Below, in pieces: positions 53,872-62,930 of a stretch of 64,000 nt of DNA (position 1 is the stretch's first letter; every line of letters begins with the position of its first letter). Source of the DNA: Salinisphaera shabanensis E1L3A (GTDB lineage Bacteria; Pseudomonadota; Gammaproteobacteria; Nevskiales; Salinisphaeraceae); the NCBI RefSeq assembly GCF_000215955.2, contig NZ_AFNV02000007.1, positions 62,001 to 126,000 on the forward strand, written 5' to 3'. The position numbers were made by a program, and so were the translations under genes. The notes below the pieces were generated by a model. The model had not been told where the DNA came from. It was given only the letters and a program-made list of their open reading frames with translations, and ran no database searches.

Positions 53872-54885
53872 ATGAGCAAGACGCCGGTCACAGTCATCAA
53901 GGGCGATGGTATCGGCCCGGATATCGTCAATGCGGCACTACGCGTGCTCGATCGGCTGGATACCGGCTTCGAGTATGAAGAGGTCATCGTCGGCCAGGCC
54001 GCGCTCGATGCCGGCGAATCGGAAGTCATGCCGGAATCGGCGCTCAAGTCGATCGAGCGTACCGGACTGGTACTCAAAGGCCCGGTTACGACCCCGTCCG
54101 GCAAGGGGTATCGCTCGGTCAATGTCGCCATGCGCAAGCATTTCGATCTTTATGCGAATGTGCGCCCGACGCTGTCGATGCCCGGCACCCAGTCGCGTTA
54201 CAAGAACCTCGACATCATTACCGTGCGCGAAAACACCGGCGGCATGTATTCCGGCCAGGGCCAGAAGGTGTCGGAAGACGGCAACCGTGCTGAAGCCCTG
54301 TCGGTGATCACCCGTTCCGAGTGCGAGCGCATTATTCGTTTCGCTTTCGATATGGCGCGGGCACGCGGGCGACGCAAGGTGACGTTGGCGCACAAGGCCA
54401 ACATCATGAAATCGACGTCAGGTCTGTTTTTGGAGGTCGGTCGCCAGATTTCCGAGGAATACGATGATATCGAGCACGACGAGGTGATCGTCGATGCCTG
54501 TGCGATGAAACTCGTCATGCACCCCGAACGATTCGATGTCATCGTCACGACCAATCTGTTCGGCGATATCCTGTCTGATCTGTGTGCCGGCCTGATCGGC
54601 GGCCTGGGTCTGGCGCCGGGCGCGAATATCGGCGAAACCTGTGCGATGTTCGAAGCCGTACACGGCAGCGCGCCCGATATTGCCGGCAAGGGCATTGCCA
54701 ATCCGACCTCGGTGATTCTTGCCGCCGCGCTCATGCTGGAGCATGTCGACCAACCGGAGAATGCCAACCGTCTGCGGCGGGCCGTGCGCTCTGTAGTGGC
54801 CGAGCACGATCGTGTGACCCCGGATCTGGGCGGCAACGCGACGACCGAGCGGTTTACCGATGCGGTGATCGAACGGCTCGGCTAG
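53872..54885 (+). CDS. Isocitrate dehydrogenase (probably NAD-dependent), isopropylmalate dehydrogenase-like
   Basis: A 337-aa decarboxylating dehydrogenase, shorter than the 416-aa E. coli type and like the NAD-type enzymes of xanthomonads. T-V-I-K-G-D-G-I-G-P-D starts the chain; K-S-P-like L-K-G-P-V-T-T-P, H-K-A-N-I-M-K, N-L-F-G-D-I-L-S-D and H-G-S-A-P-D-I-A-G-K-G-I-A-N-P are conserved. In the usual R-E-N-T-E-G block the Glu is replaced by Gly (residue 123, R-E-N-T-G-G-M-Y). Substrate assignment between isocitrate and related acids is therefore not certain. It is monocistronic with an A-rich leader and AGGA before the ATG. Confidence 0.85.
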   Translation: MSKTPVTVIKGDGIGPDIVNAALRVLDRLDTGFEYEEVIVGQAALDAGESEVMPESALKSIERTGLVLKGPVTTPSGKGYRSVNVAMRKHFDLYANVRPTLSMPGTQSRYKNLDIITVRENTGGMYSGQGQKVSEDGNRAEALSVITRSECERIIRFAFDMARARGRRKVTLAHKANIMKSTSGLFLEVGRQISEEYDDIEHDEVIVDACAMKLVMHPERFDVIVTTNLFGDILSDLCAGLIGGLGLAPGANIGETCAMFEAVHGSAPDIAGKGIANPTSVILAAALMLEHVDQPENANRLRRAVRSVVAEHDRVTPDLGGNATTERFTDAVIERLG

Positions 54886-55429
54886 GGGCTCTGTAGCCGG
54901 CTGCGGCACGACCGGGAAATGCGAAACGCGGTGGCTGTATTGCCGCGCGTTATCGCTGCCTGCGGGACAACGGTGTAGGCCGAGCGCATAGCAGTTGAGC
55001 GAAGCCTGATGGTGATTGCCGGTTGAATCCGTGCCGGCTACGGGCGTGCACGCGCGAAGAAAGCGGGCTTGGCGCGCAAGGTCGGTTTACGGCGGTCACC
55101 TGCGCAATTCCCGCTTGTGCCGCGACGCGTTCCTCTGCTTTTGTGCGCAAATTCCCGATGTCGACTACGGGAGATGCCGCATCCGTTCGCCCGCACGACG
55201 TCGTAGCAATCCATTGCAGGCGCATGGAATTCGATACGGCGAGAGCGCGCCGCGCAGTTCGCTTGATACGAAGGCTTTGGTGATGCGCACGTAAACGTCT
55301 ATAAGCTGCGATAAAAACAGCGAAGCGCTGGCTGTCAGGCCGGATGTTCACTGGGCTGAGATGCCCAACGAGCGTGCTTCGGGCGCTTGTACTTTCGGCA
55401 AATGCCGAAGCGAGGGGATTTGTTAGCGC
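54886..55429. other. Leader/promoter region of the kai-like operon
   Basis: The region between the isocitrate dehydrogenase gene and the GGDEF-EAL gene spans 544 bases. The right third holds a predicted sigma-70 promoter (55277-55305), a TGGGC-TGAGAT-GCCCA hairpin at 55352-55367, and a TTCGGCA/TGCCGAA hairpin at 55394-55409 just before a GAGGGGA ribosome site. The left two thirds show nothing I recognise. Open frames on either strand here lack domains and are treated as chance. Confidence 0.5.
55277..55305 (+). promoter_or_regulatory. Predicted sigma-70 promoter of the GGDEF-EAL/kaiC/kaiB-like operon
   Basis: TTGGTG at 55277-55282 and TATAAG at 55300-55305 are separated by exactly 17 bases. 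Transcription from about 55312 would give a leader of about 118 bases containing the two hairpins at 55352-55367 and 55394-55409. No other good pair lies closer to the start codon. Confidence 0.45.
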
Positions 55430-57514
55430 ATGAGCGAATACCATCATCTGGCTGAAAACAGCCCGGCTGCCCTTGTGCTGGTACGCCTGAATGGCACGAT
55501 CATCGCTGCAAACAATGCGGCGTGTCGCTTGCTGGGCCTCTATCGCCAGCAGATGGAACAGCTCACCGTCGATCAATGGCTGGCACGTCCGATCGAGCGT
55601 ACGCGCGATGCGTTGGCACATATCCGGGCGTCCAGCGGTACCTATATCGACGTCACACTGCGCCACGGCGAAGGGTTTGAGTTCTCGGCGCAGTTGAGCA
55701 GCCGGGTTTTTGAGCATCCCGCCCATGGCCGCGTTGCCAGCATTGTGCTTCGCTTCAATGCGGCGTTGGCGACGTCCGGCGACGAAGACGCCGATGTGGC
55801 GCAGGTCGCACTGGATCATATCGACGAGGCCGCGGTGCTGCTGGACTCGAATACGCGCATCCGTGCGTTGAATCCGGCCTATACGCGCATCACCGGCTAT
55901 GACGAAGCGGCGGCGCTCGGCCAGTCGCTTGAGCTGGGTGCCGCGCGCCGGGGCGCCGATTCCTGGGACGGGCTGATCGAGGCCATGAGCCCGGGTGAGC
56001 GCTGGACAGGTGAAGTGCAGAATCGACGCCGCAATGGCGAGCTTTATCCGGCCTACGTGAAGATCACAGCACTTGCGCCGAGCGAAGACGAGGCCGCGGC
56101 CCAGTTCGTCGTGGTGTTTCGCGATCTTTCGGCCGACAAGGCCTACGAGGCACGGATCGAATACCTCGCCCATTACGATACGCTCACCGGCTTGGCCAAC
56201 CGTACGCTCATCGAAAAGCGTGCCGAGCTGGCCCGTATCGCGGTGGCCCGTGACGGTCGCCATCTCGCGTTATTGTTTCTCGATCTGGACGGCTTCAAAG
56301 CCGTTAACGACTCGCTCGGCCATGCCACCGGCGACGAGTTGCTTCGTCATGTTGCCGATCGCCTGCGCAGCGCGGTGAGCAAAACCGATATCGTTGCCCG
56401 GCAAGGCGGCGATGAGTTCGTGATTCTGCTCGACTCTATTTCAAAACCCGAGGATGCCGCCTATGTGGCGGCGCGGATTCAGGAAACGCTACGGGTGCCG
56501 TTGACGCTCAACGATCAGACGGTTTTCACCACGGCCAGTATCGGCATCAGCTGTTACCCCGATGACAGCCAGGATCTGACCACGCTGTTGCGAAACGCCG
56601 ACATGGCTATGTATCGCGCCAAGCGTCAGGGCCATGGGCGCTATGTGTTCTATCGCCCAGAGATGGATGCCAACGCGCACTGGATGCTGCAGTTGCGCAA
56701 CAACCTGCATCGTGCGCTCGACCGCGATGAACTGCATGTCTATTACCAGCCGTTTGTCGATGTCGACTCCGGCACCGTGACAGGCATTGAAGCGCTGCTG
56801 CGCTGGCAGAACGACGAACTCGGCATGGTTTCGCCCGTGGATTTCATTCCGATCGCCGAAGAAACGGGGCTGATCATCGAGATCGGCCAATGGGTGCTGC
56901 GTGCGGCCTGCCGTGAGCTCCAGCGTCTGCACGCGCGCGGCTACGATCATCTACGCGTGGCGGTGAATCTGTCGGCCCGCCAATTCCGCCAGACCGATCT
57001 TGTGGCACAGATTGCGGACGTGCTGGCAGAGACGGGGCTCGCCAGCCGATATCTGGAGCTCGAGATCACGGAAACCGTCCTCATGGAGCAGGCGGGGGCA
57101 ACGCTCGATACGCTGCATGGGTTACACGAGCTGGGCGTCGCCGTCGCGCTCGACGATTTCGGTACCGGTTATTCCTCTTTGAGCTATCTGCGCCGCTTTC
57201 CGATTACCTATCTCAAGGTCGACAAGTCCTTTGTTGACGGCATACCCGGTGAAAAAGGCGATTTGACCATCACGCGTACTATCGTGGCAATGGCCCGTAG
57301 CCTGGGCATACGGGTAACGGCCGAAGGCGTCGAAACGGCGGCGCAGGGCAAATGGCTAAGGCATTGGAATTGCGAGGAGGCGCAAGGCTATTTATACAGC
57401 CTGCCACTCGCAGCCGACGATCTGGAGTGGCTGTTGTGCAACCACGACATGTTGCCGGTCAGTGGCGAAATCGGCACGCTTGCGGATAATCAATCTTCTG
57501 TACTCGAGGAATAG
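55430..57514 (+). CDS. PAS-PAS-GGDEF-EAL cyclic-di-GMP turnover protein
   Basis: A 694-aa cytoplasmic signalling protein without membrane helices. Two PAS-like domains (about residues 1-115 and 125-245) sense an unknown cue. The GGDEF domain keeps its catalytic R-Q-G-G-D-E-F (326-330), but the inhibitory RxxD site reads S-K-T-D, so product feedback is probably lost. The EAL domain has E-A-L (454-456), N-L-S-A-R-Q-F, E-I-T-E-T, D-D-F-G-T-G-Y-S-S-L and L-K-V-D-K-S, all needed for phosphodiesterase activity. Both activities may be present. It lies five bases before the kaiC-like gene, and c-di-GMP output is probably controlled together with that pair. Confidence 0.93.
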   Translation: MSEYHHLAENSPAALVLVRLNGTIIAANNAACRLLGLYRQQMEQLTVDQWLARPIERTRDALAHIRASSGTYIDVTLRHGEGFEFSAQLSSRVFEHPAHGRVASIVLRFNAALATSGDEDADVAQVALDHIDEAAVLLDSNTRIRALNPAYTRITGYDEAAALGQSLELGAARRGADSWDGLIEAMSPGERWTGEVQNRRRNGELYPAYVKITALAPSEDEAAAQFVVVFRDLSADKAYEARIEYLAHYDTLTGLANRTLIEKRAELARIAVARDGRHLALLFLDLDGFKAVNDSLGHATGDELLRHVADRLRSAVSKTDIVARQGGDEFVILLDSISKPEDAAYVAARIQETLRVPLTLNDQTVFTTASIGISCYPDDSQDLTTLLRNADMAMYRAKRQGHGRYVFYRPEMDANAHWMLQLRNNLHRALDRDELHVYYQPFVDVDSGTVTGIEALLRWQNDELGMVSPVDFIPIAEETGLIIEIGQWVLRAACRELQRLHARGYDHLRVAVNLSARQFRQTDLVAQIADVLAETGLASRYLELEITETVLMEQAGATLDTLHGLHELGVAVALDDFGTGYSSLSYLRRFPITYLKVDKSFVDGIPGEKGDLTITRTIVAMARSLGIRVTAEGVETAAQGKWLRHWNCEEAQGYLYSLPLAADDLEWLLCNHDMLPVSGEIGTLADNQSSVLEE

Positions 57515-57519
57515 GCCGC

Positions 57520-59241
57520 TTGTCTATGCCTGAATTCTTGGCAACCTCTCGTATGCCGACCGGTGTGGAAGGGCTGGATGCGCTGCTCGGCGGCGGTCTG
57601 CCGGACCAGCGGTTGACGCTGCTCTACGGTGGAACCGGCGTGGGCAAAACGGTGCTCGCGCTCGAAGTGTTGGTGAATAATGCCAAGGCGGGGCGCCCGG
57701 GCATTGTCGTGGGCTTCGAAGAGGGGCCAGAGGAACTCATCGAAAACCATGTCTCCTTCGACTGGGGGCTGGCCGAAGCGGCCGACACCAATATCCATCT
57801 GATGGCCGCGCGCGTCGAGGACGAGTTTCGCGATGTGGGTGCGTTCGATATTTCCGGACTGCTCGCCTCAATAGAAGCCAAGATCAAACAAACCGCTGCG
57901 CGTTGGGTTTTGATCGACGGCCTCGATGCGCTTCTGGGCACTCTCGGCGACCGCGTCGCGGCCATGCGCGAGCTGTTCCGGCTCAAGCACTGGCTCACGG
58001 ATTGTGGGGTTGCCGTGATCATGACGGCCAAGCTCGATGATCACGACAGCACCGGCACGACGCATTTTCGCGATATGCCTTACGTCGCCGACTGCGTCAT
58101 TCGGCTGCAAAATGCTGCCCATAAGCGCACATTCGCGCGCACCTTGCGGGTGGTTAAGCTGCGTGGCGGGCAGAGCAGCAGCGCGGAAATGCCGTTCGTC
58201 ATCCGTAGCAGCGGGGTGCTCGTAGCCGAGCGCGAAAACTATCCGCTCAAGGCCAAGGTTTTCGACGAACAGATCGGCAGCGGTATCGAGCGTCTGGATA
58301 CGATGCTGCGTGGCGGTCTGATACGCGGCAATAGCGTTCTGATATCGGGGCCGCCGGGGGCCGCGAAAACCAGCCTTGCCGCGTGTTTCGCACGGGAGAT
58401 GGCCGAAGCTGGCGAACGCGTGCTCTATATCAGCTTTGACGAGGCCGGAGAGCAGATCGTAGAGGATCTACAGTCGGTCAGTATCAATCTACGGCCGCAT
58501 GTCGACAGCGGTTTGTTGAAGATGCAGGGCGTTCTTGCCGGAGCCACGAGCGCGGAAGCGCATTACATCGATATCCATCATGCGATACGCGAGTTTGCTC
58601 CGCACCATGTCATCGTCGATCCGATTTCGGCATTGGTAAAGTCCGGCGGTCTTGAAATGGCGGTAGACGTGTCAGATCGCCTGCTCGATCTGGCCAAGGC
58701 GACGGGCATCACGTTCTACGTCACTGCGCTGTCCTCGGCGCAGGCGCAGGCGAGCGATATGGAAAGCCATCTCGCCAATATCGTGGACGTATGGATCGGG
58801 GTGGATTACTGCATCGGAGAAGGCGAACGAAACCGAGCGTTGTCGGTGATCAAGGCGCGCGGGATCAATCACTCGAACCAGATACGTGAGCTCACGCTCG
58901 ACGATAACGGGCCGGGGCTGGCGGACGTCTATATTGCCAGTGGCCAGATGTTGATGGGCTCGGCCCGGCTACGCGAAGAGCAGGAGTTCGAGCTGCGTTT
59001 GCGTGACGAACAACAAGCGCATGAGCGCGACCGCCGGCGGGTAGAGGCAGGCATCACCCAGACTCAGGAGCAGATCGCGACATTGACGAATCAGCTCGAT
59101 AAACAGCGCCTCGAACTTGAGCAGCTCGAGCATCAGGCTCAGGCCGAAGTGCGAAGCCGTGATCACGATCGGCGTCGTTTGCTGCACAGTCGCGGTGCGG
59201 ATGCCAACGACCACCGTTTCTCGGATGAGCCGTCACGATGA
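57520..59241 (+). CDS. KaiC-like double RecA-domain ATPase with coiled-coil tail
   Basis: A 573-aa two-lobed KaiC-family protein. I use TTG 57520, nine bases after GAGGA; ATG 57526 is an alternative. Lobe I has Walker A G-G-T-G-V-G-K-T (37-44) and catalytic Glu pair E67-E68; lobe II has G-P-P-G-A-A-K-T (277-284) and D307-E308. By motif alignment, residues equivalent to the KaiC phosphosites Ser431/Thr432 are A419 and N420 (E-S-H-L-A-N-I-V-D). The C-terminal ~95 residues form a charged coiled coil in place of the KaiC tail. It overlaps the kaiB-like gene by four bases. No kaiA is present, as is usual outside cyanobacteria. Confidence 0.92.
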   Translation: MSMPEFLATSRMPTGVEGLDALLGGGLPDQRLTLLYGGTGVGKTVLALEVLVNNAKAGRPGIVVGFEEGPEELIENHVSFDWGLAEAADTNIHLMAARVEDEFRDVGAFDISGLLASIEAKIKQTAARWVLIDGLDALLGTLGDRVAAMRELFRLKHWLTDCGVAVIMTAKLDDHDSTGTTHFRDMPYVADCVIRLQNAAHKRTFARTLRVVKLRGGQSSSAEMPFVIRSSGVLVAERENYPLKAKVFDEQIGSGIERLDTMLRGGLIRGNSVLISGPPGAAKTSLAACFAREMAEAGERVLYISFDEAGEQIVEDLQSVSINLRPHVDSGLLKMQGVLAGATSAEAHYIDIHHAIREFAPHHVIVDPISALVKSGGLEMAVDVSDRLLDLAKATGITFYVTALSSAQAQASDMESHLANIVDVWIGVDYCIGEGERNRALSVIKARGINHSNQIRELTLDDNGPGLADVYIASGQMLMGSARLREEQEFELRLRDEQQAHERDRRRVEAGITQTQEQIATLTNQLDKQRLELEQLEHQAQAEVRSRDHDRRRLLHSRGADANDHRFSDEPSR

Positions 59242-59570
59242 GCGAAGTAGAGGCCGGAGGGCACGGGATGGGAAACGAGGGTGCACGCGACGCGCTGCGC
59301 GTCTGTCTATTCGTGGCAGGCGATTCGCCCAGTTCTCGACGTGCTCGGCGCGCGCTCGAGTCGCTAATCGGCTCGCAGTCGAATGAGCAAAAGGCACAGT
59401 TCGAAGTGGTCGATGTGCTGCGCGAGCCCGAGCGCGCGCTCGAATCGAATCTGTTGGCCACGCCCACGCTGCTCATCGAACGTGGGGGACATGTCAGCCG
59501 CTATGTCGGTGACCTTCACGAGCGCGAGGACGTGCGCGAAGAGCTCTCGCATATGGCCGACAGCCCCTAA
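59238..59570 (+). CDS. KaiB-like thioredoxin-fold protein
   Basis: A 110-aa protein. After a 20-residue N-terminal extension come the KaiB motifs: C-L-F-V-A-G-D-S-P-S-S-R-R-A (KaiB: Y-V-A-G-N-T-P-N-S), V-V-D-V-L-R-E-P-E-R-A, L-L-A-T-P-T-L-L-I and G-D-L-H-E-R-E-D-V. KaiB binds the CI lobe of KaiC after a fold switch. ATGA overlap with the kaiC-like gene shows they are cotranslated, in C-then-B order, the reverse of the cyanobacterial kaiBC. Downstream genes are convergent, so this ends the operon. Confidence 0.92.
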   Translation: MSEVEAGGHGMGNEGARDALRVCLFVAGDSPSSRRARRALESLIGSQSNEQKAQFEVVDVLREPERALESNLLATPTLLIERGGHVSRYVGDLHEREDVREELSHMADSP

Positions 59571-59666
59571 GTCAACGAGGATAGTAGAAGGCCCGGGTGC
59601 GGCGTTTCGTTAAATGCCTCCACCCGAACAACGCGAGACAAGAGCAGCGGCCACGGCGCGGGCCGG

Positions 59667-60524
59667 TCAGCTGCGCCCCGCTGGCGAGTGTGGCTTGAGC
59701 CGAGCGCAGGTTATGCGTTCGTTGCCGCCGAGATCCGGCGTCGTCTTAACGGCTGACCATGTCGTGAGCATGGCTCGCACGGCCGCGCCCTGGTCGGCGC
59801 CGTGTTCGAGATACAGAGCGCCGCCGACATCGAGATGATCGCGCGCGCCGGCGACGATGCGCTGCAGGTCCGCAAGACCATTGGCGGGTGCGACCAGTGC
59901 CGCGTGTGGCTCGTGCTTGAGTTCAGCGGCGGCCAGATGACGATCGCCCGGCGCGATATAGGGTGGATTGGAGACGATGATATCGAAGCGCTTGTCCCCG
60001 ATCGCCTCGTACCAGCGCCCGAGAGCGAACTCGATCTGATTCAAACCCAGCCGCGTTGCGTTGTCTTGTGCACACGCCAATGCGCCTGCGCTCGCATCGG
60101 TGGCGGTAATCGACCAGGCTGGGCGTTCGCTGGCCAGCGCCAGGGCGATCGCGCCGCTGCCCGTGCCCAGATCGAGCAGCTGATGCGGCGCGCTGTCGTG
60201 GGCGTCGAGTACCGCCTCGACCAGCGTTTCCGTATCCGGACGCGGCACGAGCACGTCGGGCGTCACGCCGAGATCGAGTGTCCAGAAGCCGACCGTGCCG
60301 GTGATATAAGCCAACGGCTCACCCGCGGCGCGGCGTGCGACCAGCGCATCGAAACGGCGGCGCGGCGCGTCGTCGACGATATCGTGAGCGTGTACCACAA
60401 GCCAGCTATGATCGACGCCGAGCACCTGCTCGAGCAGGCGCTGTGCATCTAGATCCGGGCTGTCGCTATGCTCGGCCAGACGCGTGCGCGCAGCGCGGCG
60501 TAGCGCGTCGACGGTATTCGTCAC
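59667..60524 (-). CDS. prmC: Peptide chain release factor N5-glutamine methyltransferase
   Basis: A 285-aa SAM-dependent enzyme that methylates the GGQ glutamine of release factors. L-L-D-L-G-T-G-S-G-A-I-A-L-A-L-A is the SAM-binding motif and S-N-P-P-Y-I-A-P the N-P-P-Y catalytic motif. G-x-x-F-W-x-L and L-V-P-R-P-D-T-E-T-L lie between the N-terminal helical domain and the Rossmann core. GTG 60524, ten bases after the prfA stop, is the likely start; an ATG 54 bases upstream would lie inside prfA. The hemA-prfA-prmC order is conserved. Confidence 0.95.
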   Translation of the reverse strand: MTNTVDALRRAARTRLAEHSDSPDLDAQRLLEQVLGVDHSWLVVHAHDIVDDAPRRRFDALVARRAAGEPLAYITGTVGFWTLDLGVTPDVLVPRPDTETLVEAVLDAHDSAPHQLLDLGTGSGAIALALASERPAWSITATDASAGALACAQDNATRLGLNQIEFALGRWYEAIGDKRFDIIVSNPPYIAPGDRHLAAAELKHEPHAALVAPANGLADLQRIVAGARDHLDVGGALYLEHGADQGAAVRAMLTTWSAVKTTPDLGGNERITCARLKPHSPAGRS

Positions 60525-60534
60525 GACGGCTCGA

Positions 60535-61620
60535 TCAGGCCGCGCCCATTTCGGCGAGCAGATCGGCCTGGTGTTCACTGGTCAGGGCATCGACGATCTC
60601 TTCGAGATTGCCGGCCATTACATCGTCGAGCTTGTAGAGGGTGAGATTGATGCGGTGATCGGTCACCCGGCCCTGCGGGAAGTTATAGGTGCGAATACGC
60701 TCGGAGCGATCGCCGCTGCCGACGAGTTTCTTGCGCGTGGCCGCCTGTTCGCTGGCCTGTTTGTCCTGTTCGGCGGTCATCAGTTTGGTCTGCAGCAAAC
60801 TCATCGCCCGGGCGCGGTTCTTGTGCTGGGAGCGCTCCTGCTGGCATTCGACGACCACGCCGGTGGGAATGTGGGTGATGCGGATCGCCGAGTCGGTCTT
60901 GTTGATGTGCTGGCCACCCGCGCCCTGGGCGCGAAAGGTATCGACACGAATATCGTTGGCGTTGATATCGATCGCGCCGACTTCATCCTGCTCGGGCAAG
61001 ACCGCCACGGTACAAGCGGAGGTATGAATACGGCCTTGCGATTCGGTGGCCGGCACGCGCTGAACGCGATGCGCGCCGGATTCGAACTTCAGCCGCGAAA
61101 AAGCGCCGGTGCCGATCAGGCGCGAGATCACTTCCTTGTAGCCACCGTGCTCGCCTTCGCTGGCTGACAGGATTTCGACCTGCCAGCCCTGTTTTTCTGC
61201 GTAGCTGGAATACATGCGCAGCAGATCGCCCGCGAACAGCGCAGCTTCGTCGCCGCCGGTACCGGCACGAATTTCGAGATAGAGGTTGGCGTTGTCGTTC
61301 GGATCGCGTGGGATGAGATGCTTGCGTAGCGCCGCCTCGAGGCCGACAAGCCGCTCGCGCGCGTCGTCGAGTTCGACTTCGGCCATTTCGCGCAGTTCGG
61401 CTTCGTCCGAGTTCTCCATTTCTTCCAGGTCGGCCATTTCGTCGACCAGCGCGCGCCAGGCCCGATAGTCGGCGGACAGCGATTCAAGCTGGGCATATTC
61501 CTGGGACATGCGCCGGAACTTGTCCTGATCACCGATGACCTCCGGGTCGGACAGCGAGTGCGCGAGGTCTTCATGGCGTTCGACCAGTTCCTCGAGTTTG
61601 GCGCGCAGGGAATCTTTCAT
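60535..61620 (-). CDS. prfA: Peptide chain release factor 1
   Basis: A 361-aa factor that ends translation at UAA and UAG. The G-G-Q motif is in [10 protein letters not shown], and the codon-reading P-A-T tripeptide is in R-V-P-A-T-E-S-Q-G. Length equals that of E. coli RF1 (360 aa). ATG overlaps the hemA stop by four bases (ATGA), and prmC, which modifies its Gln, follows directly. Confidence 0.97.
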
Positions 61621-62930
61621 TCGTTGTCTTCTTTGGTCGTCTTGAAAACGGCGTGGTGCGCGTTGTAGGCGTGTGTTTCATTATCGAGCTGAAACAGATC
61701 ACGGGCGCTGGTCAGCAGTTCCTGCTGATGCGCACCGCGCGCCTTGCGCAGCGTCGCGCTTGGGTCGTGCATCAGTTTGTTGGTCAGCGTGTGGGCTAGA
61801 TAGGCGAGCACGTCGTCGGCGTTCTCGCCGCGCGCCAGTCGCCGCCGTGCCTTCGCAAGCACGTCCTCGCGGGCGGCGTAGGCCTGATGGCGCAGATCGC
61901 GAATGGTATCGATCGCCTGGCGCGAGTCCAGCCAGTCGATATATTCCTCGATGCGCCCATCGAGCATACCGTCGGCCAGCGTGGCCGCCTTTTCGCGCGA
62001 GCGGCGATTATCGTCGATGACGCTTTGCAGGTCATCCACCGAATACAGATAGATGTCCTCGAGCTTGCCCGCAGCCGGGTCGATGTCGCGCGGTACGGCG
62101 AGGTCGAGTGCGAACATCGGTTTGCGGCGGCGCTGGCGAACCGCGTCGCGCAGATCGTCGAAGTCCACCAGATAGCCGGGCGCCGCGGTCGACGAGATCA
62201 GCATGTCGGCTTCGGCAAGATGGGTCGCGACATCCTCGAGCGCGATCGCGTAGCCGTGATAGCGCGTGGCCAGTTCCTGAGCACGTTCGACACTGCGATT
62301 GGCAAAGATCATGCGTTGCACGCCCGCTTCGGCGAGATAGCGCGCCGCCAGATCGACGGTTTCGCCGGCACCAATGAACATGGCCGAGGTTTCCGACAGA
62401 TCGGCAAAGATCTGACGCGCCAGACTCACTCCGGCATACGCCACGGACACCGGATTGGCGCCGATCTCGGTCTGGCTACGAATCTGCTTGGCTACCGCGA
62501 AGCTGTGTTCGAACAAACGCGTGAGCAGCGGGCCGGCGCCACGCGCGGCACGCGCGCTGCGATAGGCGTTTTTCATCTGCCCGAGAATCTGCGGCTCACC
62601 GAGAATCATCGAATCCAGTCCGGCCGCCACGCGCAAACTGTGGCGTACGGTCTCGCGATCGCGATGAATATAGAAGTAGGGCGCCATGTCGTCGTCGTTG
62701 AGCCCGCGCTGTTCGCACAGCCAACGACGCAGGGAACCGTCGCCCGGGGCGTCGGTCACAGCATAGAGTTCGGTGCGATTGCAGGTCGACAGAATCGCGC
62801 CCTCGTGCACATGCGGCAGGCGCAGGAAATCGTCGAGCGCAGCATCGAATTGCTCGGGCGGAAACGCCGCGGTCTCACGGACCGATAGCGGGGCGGTGAT
62901 ATGGTTCAAGCCGACGGTCAGCAGCGTCAT
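61617..62930 (-). CDS. hemA: Glutamyl-tRNA reductase
   Basis: A 437-aa enzyme for the first committed step of C5 tetrapyrrole synthesis. [10 protein letters not shown] holds the active Cys, G-L-N-H is near the N-terminus, and [10 protein letters not shown] and G-A-G-E-T are the NADPH and catalytic domain signatures. The C-terminal dimerisation helices (D-S-R-Q-A-I-D-T-I) end the chain. It heads hemA-prfA-prmC and is divergent from a TPR lipoprotein gene. Confidence 0.97.

Follow-up and report, generated by a model that had tools for sequence, protein, structure and literature searches.

A KaiBC pair lacking known timing residues is encoded beside a GGDEF-EAL protein in Salinisphaera shabanensis

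Salinisphaera shabanensis E1L3A carries a three-gene unit encoding a PAS-PAS-GGDEF-EAL protein, a KaiC with two ATPase lobes (CI and CII) and a KaiB, which we analyzed within a 64,000-nucleotide stretch of its genome (contig NZ_AFNV02000007.1, positions 62,001 to 126,000; hereafter, the window). The neighborhood is of an already known kind, since kaiBC genes beside GGDEF/EAL genes, which act in the turnover of cyclic di-GMP (c-di-GMP), were described in 2011 (PMC3164672). The unusual part, judging from alignments, is the Kai pair itself: KaiC lacks both canonical phospho-acceptor residues and has altered motifs in its CII lobe, and KaiB lacks two of three timer prolines. With moderate confidence, we propose that KaiB and KaiC form an ATP/ADP-driven switch on the co-encoded c-di-GMP enzyme, without timekeeping. 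Publications are cited by PubMed Central identifier.

Residues lost and kept in KaiC and KaiB

Gene 2 matched the Pfam family KaiC (PF06745) in two stretches with 257 bits, and scored above the cut-off of the NCBIfam model for double KaiC domains (NF006799; 428.5 bits, cut-off 408) and below that of the curated circadian KaiC model TIGR02655 (222.4 bits, cut-off 546.25). Its best relative of solved structure was Rhodobacter sphaeroides KaiC (8dba; 290.6 bits over residues 8-559, C-terminal extension included). At the positions of the phospho-acceptors S413 and S414 of that protein, the window carries Ala and Asn. We compared these positions in a KaiC alignment of 117 rows (7 rows below 400 amino acids dropped), 100 of them kaiB-linked, with the window counted apart. 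Among the kaiB-linked KaiCs, the acceptor pair was ST in 67, SS in 14, SA in 9, SK in 4 and AN in 2, while AT, SM, SE and FT occurred once each. Both acceptors were missing only from the window's two Salinisphaera orthologs (loci L039 and L040), which have AN as the window does. By comparison, the survey of 2011 reported phosphorylatable residues in almost all kaiB-clustered KaiCs (PMC3164672). The Synechococcus KaiABC oscillator, with a KaiB and a KaiC homologous to those of the window, likewise differs from it, as the window has no Ser or Thr at the S431/T432 positions, no KaiA found and a GGDEF-EAL neighbor.

The CII lobe departs from the usual motifs at two sites (Table 1). Ala or Ser precedes the P-loop Lys of CII in 87 of the 117 KaiCs, accompanied by Asp in the catalytic pair in 86 of the 87, and the Glu-Glu pair of CI is kept in 84 of 85 readable rows among these altered-CII proteins. 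On a quick tree, the altered rows fell within one clade of 89, window included (SH-aLRT 100), whose size in this set is no frequency because members of it served as seeds of the scan. The grouping recurred on a careful tree of 39 rows (11 rows, 100/99), and the position of the window lineage inside the clade was weakly resolved. No description of the CII change was found in the literature searched, in a search that was barely aimed at it and had supplementary alignments outside its scope. We considered whether CII is a decaying, dead lobe and rejected this, as conservation within the genus is similar for CII and CI (84.5 versus 87.7% identity to either Salinisphaera ortholog). Beyond CII, the alignment pairs the window's C-terminal extension with that of R. 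sphaeroides KaiC, a coiled coil that joins two hexamers (PMC10076222); the heptad pattern in the window's extension was not significant (328 of 2000 shuffles scored as high).

The CI loop GAFDISGLL is intact and is the putative KaiB-binding site, by analogy with cyanobacterial KaiC. We found this docking motif in 99 of 101 kaiB-linked KaiCs (window included) versus 5 of the 14 that have no kaiB linked to them. Among those five, the kaiB of L081 lies 395 bases off, that of L101 has a stop (in genome G124, the stop lying within the kaiB match), L166 ends with its contig, L171 is fusion-like and L123 shows no kaiB. Because the motif is present in CI and tracks kaiB linkage, a KaiC-KaiB complex is likely. 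As separate observations, L171:437-2797, from a Chloroflexi metagenome-assembled genome, is a single frame matching both KaiC and KaiB, and at L158:6929-8704 and L090:2239-4013 kaiC apparently lies in two frames.

Gene 3 matched the Pfam family KaiB (PF07689; 43.9 bits, cut-off 27) and fell below the cut-off of the curated circadian KaiB model TIGR02654 (43.7 bits, cut-off 145.3). In R. sphaeroides KaiB, the hours-long fold switch is limited by cis/trans isomerization of three timer prolines, P58, P65 and P67, which are all present in 474 of 487 KaiBs (PMC11551320). The window KaiB has PGGH in this region, keeping P58 and carrying Gly and His at 65 and 67; both Salinisphaera orthologs also lack P65 and P67. 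Across our own alignment, all three prolines were found in 92 of 118 KaiB rows (one row being the reference chain; L105 and L112 were unaligned there).

Loss of both prolines was further associated with gene order. Among 83 clade rows with a KaiB, both prolines were gone at 9 of 9 loci with a c-di-GMP gene only upstream versus 5 of 74 others (Fisher p 6e-9, with kinship ignored). One of the nine, L108, has an EAL match alone, at a contig end. Because the tree counts 2 to 3 independent events, the link is not established and serves as a lead. An exclusive link was rejected: the five other proline-less clade rows all have their partner downstream; L085 and L086, outside the clade, keep the prolines with a GGDEF-EAL gene upstream; and the KaiBs at L205:6065-6340 and L206:5951-6250, by histidine kinases, lack prolines 65 and 67. 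At L205 and L206 the adjoining KaiC has an unaltered CII P-loop. At L209 both prolines are gone, with a GGDEF-EAL gene upstream and a GGDEF gene downstream.

AlphaFold2 modeled the window KaiB as thioredoxin-like, in the fold-switched layout (pLDDT 77.8), with the fold-switch-stabilized KaiB 5jwr_D as the best match (TM 0.87 by target length). Legionella pneumophila KaiB (4kun), which was crystallized in the fold-switched state (PMC10808063), also ranked among the top matches in this structural comparison. Thermosynechococcus KaiB-4 (8UBH) is reported to favor the switched fold (PMC10808063). KaiB-4 and the window KaiB are alike as natural KaiBs seemingly unfit for slow switching; their sequence match is weak (23.6 bits). 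We know of no c-di-GMP link of KaiB-4, for which no search was made.

The unit and its conservation in Salinisphaera

ORF (open reading frame) calls and Pfam matches placed the three genes in succession on the plus strand at 55430-59570, as a sequence-only reading of the window had described. The five-base gap that it gave between gene 1 and kaiC is real if kaiC starts at TTG 57520, a start that GAGGAA at 57506-57511, 8 bases before it, fits; the ATGA overlap of kaiC and kaiB was confirmed. So was the absence of kaiA, as a search of the window's genome (97.5% complete) for KaiA (PF07688) gave no match. The single promoter predicted by that reading was not recovered: a sigma-70 scan of 54800-59900 returned 0 sites, where shuffles averaged 1.5, and an upstream alignment showed no conservation of the DNA before the trio across three Salinisphaera species. 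A single transcript is probable, because the junctions are tight.

Table 1. Features of the three-gene unit, in window positions; KaiC residue numbers are counted from ATG 57526
Feature	Position	Strand	Basis
PAS-PAS-GGDEF-EAL protein, 694 amino acids	55430..57514	+	ORF call, Pfam
GGDEF domain, motif GGDEF intact	56168..56638	+	Pfam, motif alignment
EAL domain, EALLRW and DDFGTG present	56699..57406	+	Pfam, motif alignment
KaiC, two ATPase lobes and C-terminal extension	TTG 57520 or ATG 57526 to 59241	+	ORF, Pfam
CI Walker A GGTGVGKT, residues 35-42, intact	57628..57651	+	KaiC alignment
CI catalytic Glu pair, residues 65-66, intact	57718..57723	+	KaiC alignment
Presumed KaiB-docking loop of CI, GAFDISGLL, residues 105-113	57838..57864	+	KaiC alignment
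CII Walker A GPPGAAKT, residues 275-282, Ala replaces Gly before Lys	58348..58371	+	KaiC alignment
CII catalytic pair Asp-Glu, residues 305-306, instead of Glu-Glu	58438..58443	+	KaiC alignment
Ala417-Asn418 at phospho-acceptor positions (S413/S414 in R. sphaeroides KaiC)	58774..58779	+	KaiC alignment
C-terminal extension aligned with R. sphaeroides KaiC coiled-coil extension	58975..59205	+	8dba alignment
KaiB, 110 amino acids, ATGA overlap with kaiC	59238..59570	+	ORF, Pfam
Pro76, equivalent of timer proline P58, kept	59463..59465	+	KaiB alignment
Gly83-Gly84-His85, replacing the Pro-x-Pro that holds P65 and P67	59484..59492	+	KaiB alignment

Of 61 genomes, comprising the window's and those of 60 relatives, 6 have a KaiB, and 3 of the 6 are among 14 Salinisphaera. 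The trio occurs with identical junction spacing in the window and two other Salinisphaera (L039 and L040), and in all three carriers it is flanked by an isocitrate-dehydrogenase-type gene and prmC, names that rest on sequence and gene order. At 10 of 10 other Salinisphaera loci, the flanking genes adjoin without the trio, approximately 34 to 2,200 bases apart. These loci came from 11 other Salinisphaera genomes, with G005 (contig end) left out, and tblastn (E up to 1e-8, matches over 60 residues listed) gave no match to a trio protein in them; the gap in G007 holds a second, partial prmC-like match. In G008, the nearest relative without the trio, the flanking gene is 96% identical. Therefore, one gain in the ancestor of the three species would be the simplest account, with loss elsewhere a possible alternative. 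The sites without the trio suggest a recent horizontal origin; base composition shows no sign of one (G+C of 60.6% for the trio and 61.4% for the window). No KaiB relative in viral contigs was confirmed.

All three genes are under purifying selection. Across the three Salinisphaera, omega was 0.11-0.19 for the enzyme, 0.08-0.09 for KaiC and 0.15-0.30 for KaiB (dS 0.8-1.6). Beside the trio, prmC, prfA and hemA, again named from sequence and gene order, lie in a row on the minus strand (59667-62930), an arrangement also seen at 10 of 10 other Salinisphaera loci.

C-di-GMP genes around kaiBC loci

The sequence-only reading had proposed a search for conserved KaiC-KaiB-GGDEF/EAL neighborhoods, and such neighborhoods were found both as the trio in three Salinisphaera and more widely. 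PF07689 matched in 33 of 369 gammaproteobacterial genomes, 28 of them over the cut-off; the resulting sample comprised 31 loci over the cut-off (29 fetched, the window and G003), 29 of which hold a KaiB ORF by our profile. A GGDEF and/or EAL gene lies within 600 bases on the same strand at 16 of these 29 (14 outside Salinisphaera), and a histidine kinase within the same limits at 6. Beyond 2.5 kb, a c-di-GMP gene was seen at 2 of the 31 loci. In terms of density, there were 19 c-di-GMP genes within 600 bases (35 kb of flank) versus 3 beyond 4 kb (102 kb). GGDEF/EAL genes thus adjoin kaiB loci far more often than they occur in distant flanks, beyond chance.

A scan of named genomes, seeded with nine KaiCs of the window's clade, yielded at least 310 confirmed candidates. 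Among the 80 best loci, 77 have a KaiB, 33 lie near a c-di-GMP gene and 25 near a histidine kinase; 4 have both partner types and 26 neither, several of them on short contigs. A further sample of the phylum comprised 398 genomes, 38 of which match KaiB, and 15 regions picked from these were described only: c-di-GMP genes adjoin kaiB or kaiC at L209, L213, L218 and L219, and most other picked regions have histidine kinases. Because the association recurs across many lineages, in varied gene orders and with partner enzymes that fall outside any single family, the genomic context gives good support for a functional connection of KaiBC with c-di-GMP turnover. The coupling that the sequence-only reading had put forward therefore has support, though the idea is already in the 2011 study, which stated that in almost all non-cyanobacterial kaiC-kaiB clusters the next gene downstream of kaiC or kaiB encodes a histidine kinase or a GGDEF/EAL protein (PMC3164672). 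Like the window, those clusters group kaiC and kaiB with a GGDEF/EAL gene and have no kaiA; they differ in gene order, as the enzyme gene of the window is upstream.

Several loci are worth recording in their own right. KaiBC loci with both a hybrid histidine kinase and a REC-EAL gene are L127:5792-6970, L130:5811-6986, L128:5984-7198, L144:12700-13995 and L154:12423-13733; because some histidine-kinase loci carry such a REC-EAL gene, the kinase type may feed c-di-GMP too. At L044:6584-10415 and L045:5602-9423, both in the Salinisphaera genome G007, kaiC is followed by a GGDEF-EAL gene with no kaiB seen, and these KaiCs have the acceptor pair SY and no KaiB-docking motif. Tandem kaiB pairs of differing sequence lie beside kaiC at L042:5427-6055, L043:9562-10217, L094:6463-7062, L215:6366-7024 and L216:6174-6841. 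Besides kaiB and kaiC, the L. pneumophila kai operon holds a third, PAS/GGDEF/EAL-type gene, which would be a likeness to the window in gene content.

We then turned to the enzyme. Gene 1 has two PAS matches (within residues 4-234), a GGDEF domain at 247-403 (164 bits) and an EAL domain at 424-659 (247 bits), and carries the signatures expected of catalytically competent GGDEF and EAL domains. The Arg of the inhibitory I-site motif RxxD is absent (SKTD; GERD and GASD in the orthologs). A quick tree was built from 63 GGDEF-EAL proteins: 42 kai-linked (window included), 15 others of the window's genome and 6 unlinked neighbors. The kai-linked enzymes did not form one group, with 11 label changes on the best tree, at least 4 of them forced by well-supported branches; each change may be a gain or a loss, and the background set is small. 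As the kai-linked enzymes are scattered, a single ancestral pairing is insufficient. Of the 42, 41 retain the EAL signature, the exception being L186 with Asp for Glu, and 40 match a DDFG-type motif. A clade of 15 of the 42 has lost the GGDEF motif, and 4 more rows deviate from it at 1-2 positions. Because EAL is kept and GGDEF so often lost, c-di-GMP hydrolysis is the likelier, usual output of kai-linked enzymes.

A candidate switch, its rivals and its meaning

In the mechanism that we favor, a KaiC ring driven by ATP hydrolysis in CI and by nucleotide bound in CII would take up or release KaiB and thereby switch the co-encoded c-di-GMP enzyme. Because KaiC has no acceptor pair and KaiB lacks two prolines, the pair would respond directly to the ATP/ADP state, perhaps jointly with a PAS signal, with no hours-long cycle. 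The likelier output would be hydrolysis of c-di-GMP by EAL, with GGDEF as a GTP-binding regulator or an opposing second activity. The contact of KaiBC with the enzyme, the direction of its effect and the absence of timing are what we infer from sequence. In its suggestion that the pair times or gates c-di-GMP output, the sequence-only reading was thus plausible as to gating, and the losses of acceptors and prolines contradict timing. Biofilm or motility decisions, which it named as the outcome, would be a possible consequence.

Several points weigh against this switch. KaiC could be phosphorylated at other residues, with Ser414 three residues before Ala417. The CII changes are conservative, so that ATP binding and hydrolysis may be intact, and they are common to many KaiCs that keep the acceptors. 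Net c-di-GMP synthesis by the window enzyme is possible, as its GGDEF motif is intact, and only 16 of 29 kaiB loci adjoin a c-di-GMP gene, the others having histidine kinases or neither. The AlphaFold2 model of the window KaiB is no evidence on switching because a control KaiB with its prolines present (L094) gave the same layout (pLDDT 74.1); as default AlphaFold2 also predicts the switched state for a KaiB stable in the other one (PMC10808063), we rejected such models as a test of fold switching. Finally, a single P58A or P65A change abolished the switched, KaiC-binding state of R. sphaeroides KaiB (PMC11551320), and the window KaiB might for this reason not bind KaiC at all, rather than always; its thioredoxin-like model allows the alternative that it could be always competent.

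The switch has to be set against other arrangements. An hourglass of the R. sphaeroides type, which would be phosphorylated at other residues and time c-di-GMP output over hours, would fit the nearly full-length match to R. sphaeroides KaiC, extension included, and the lack of a kaiA, which the R. sphaeroides system (8DBA) shares (PMC10076222). The two systems also have CI motifs and the KaiB-docking loop in common. We regard such an hourglass as improbable, since R. sphaeroides KaiC has S413/S414, GVAGAGKS and Glu-Glu in CII where the window has A/N, GPPGAAKT and Asp-Glu, leaving neither acceptor position phosphorylatable and both the P-loop and the catalytic Glu of CII altered, and since P65 and P67, present in R. 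sphaeroides KaiB, are gone. Alternatively, the enzyme may be controlled mainly by a PAS ligand of its own, with KaiC-KaiB acting only as scaffold or localizer. Its two PAS domains would suit this, as would the persistence of KaiBC alongside partner enzymes of very different architecture and descent; the conservation of CI Glu-Glu in 84 of 85 rows of the clade suggests instead that hydrolysis matters, and we consider a mere scaffold unlikely.

The flow could also be reversed, the enzyme or c-di-GMP being the input to a KaiBC pair with an unlinked target. In favor of this, the unit begins with the c-di-GMP gene, and 40 GGDEF and 17 EAL matches exceed the cut-off in the window's genome, so the local enzyme need not be the main output. 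Such an input role seems quite improbable given that the neighbor is a histidine kinase in other kaiBC loci and that cyanobacterial output is carried by the histidine kinase SasA (PMC13001216). That the genes are chance neighbors or a passing remnant would be compatible with KaiB occurring in only 3 of 14 Salinisphaera genomes searched; this is largely contradicted by conserved junctions, purifying selection and strong recurrence elsewhere, and we give it very little credence.

Discussion of non-cyanobacterial KaiBC pairs usually treats them as potential clocks or hourglasses. More tentatively than the switch itself, we suggest that the window holds a "clock-less" KaiBC, in which the phosphorylation cycle and the proline-limited fold switch would be lost and CI hydrolysis, docking and constraint kept. 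It would act as a fast energy-charge switch of a c-di-GMP enzyme and be one case of a broader subtype in which the c-di-GMP gene precedes kaiC and KaiB lacks both prolines at all nine loci, in 2 to 3 independent events. A conserved KaiBC pair without the known timing elements offers a direct test of the Kai module as a plain ATP-driven switch, and of its output, and the recurrent c-di-GMP enzymes with kept EAL signatures point to an output that can be measured. If this holds, gating second-messenger enzymes, rather than telling time, may be an ancient role of the Kai module.

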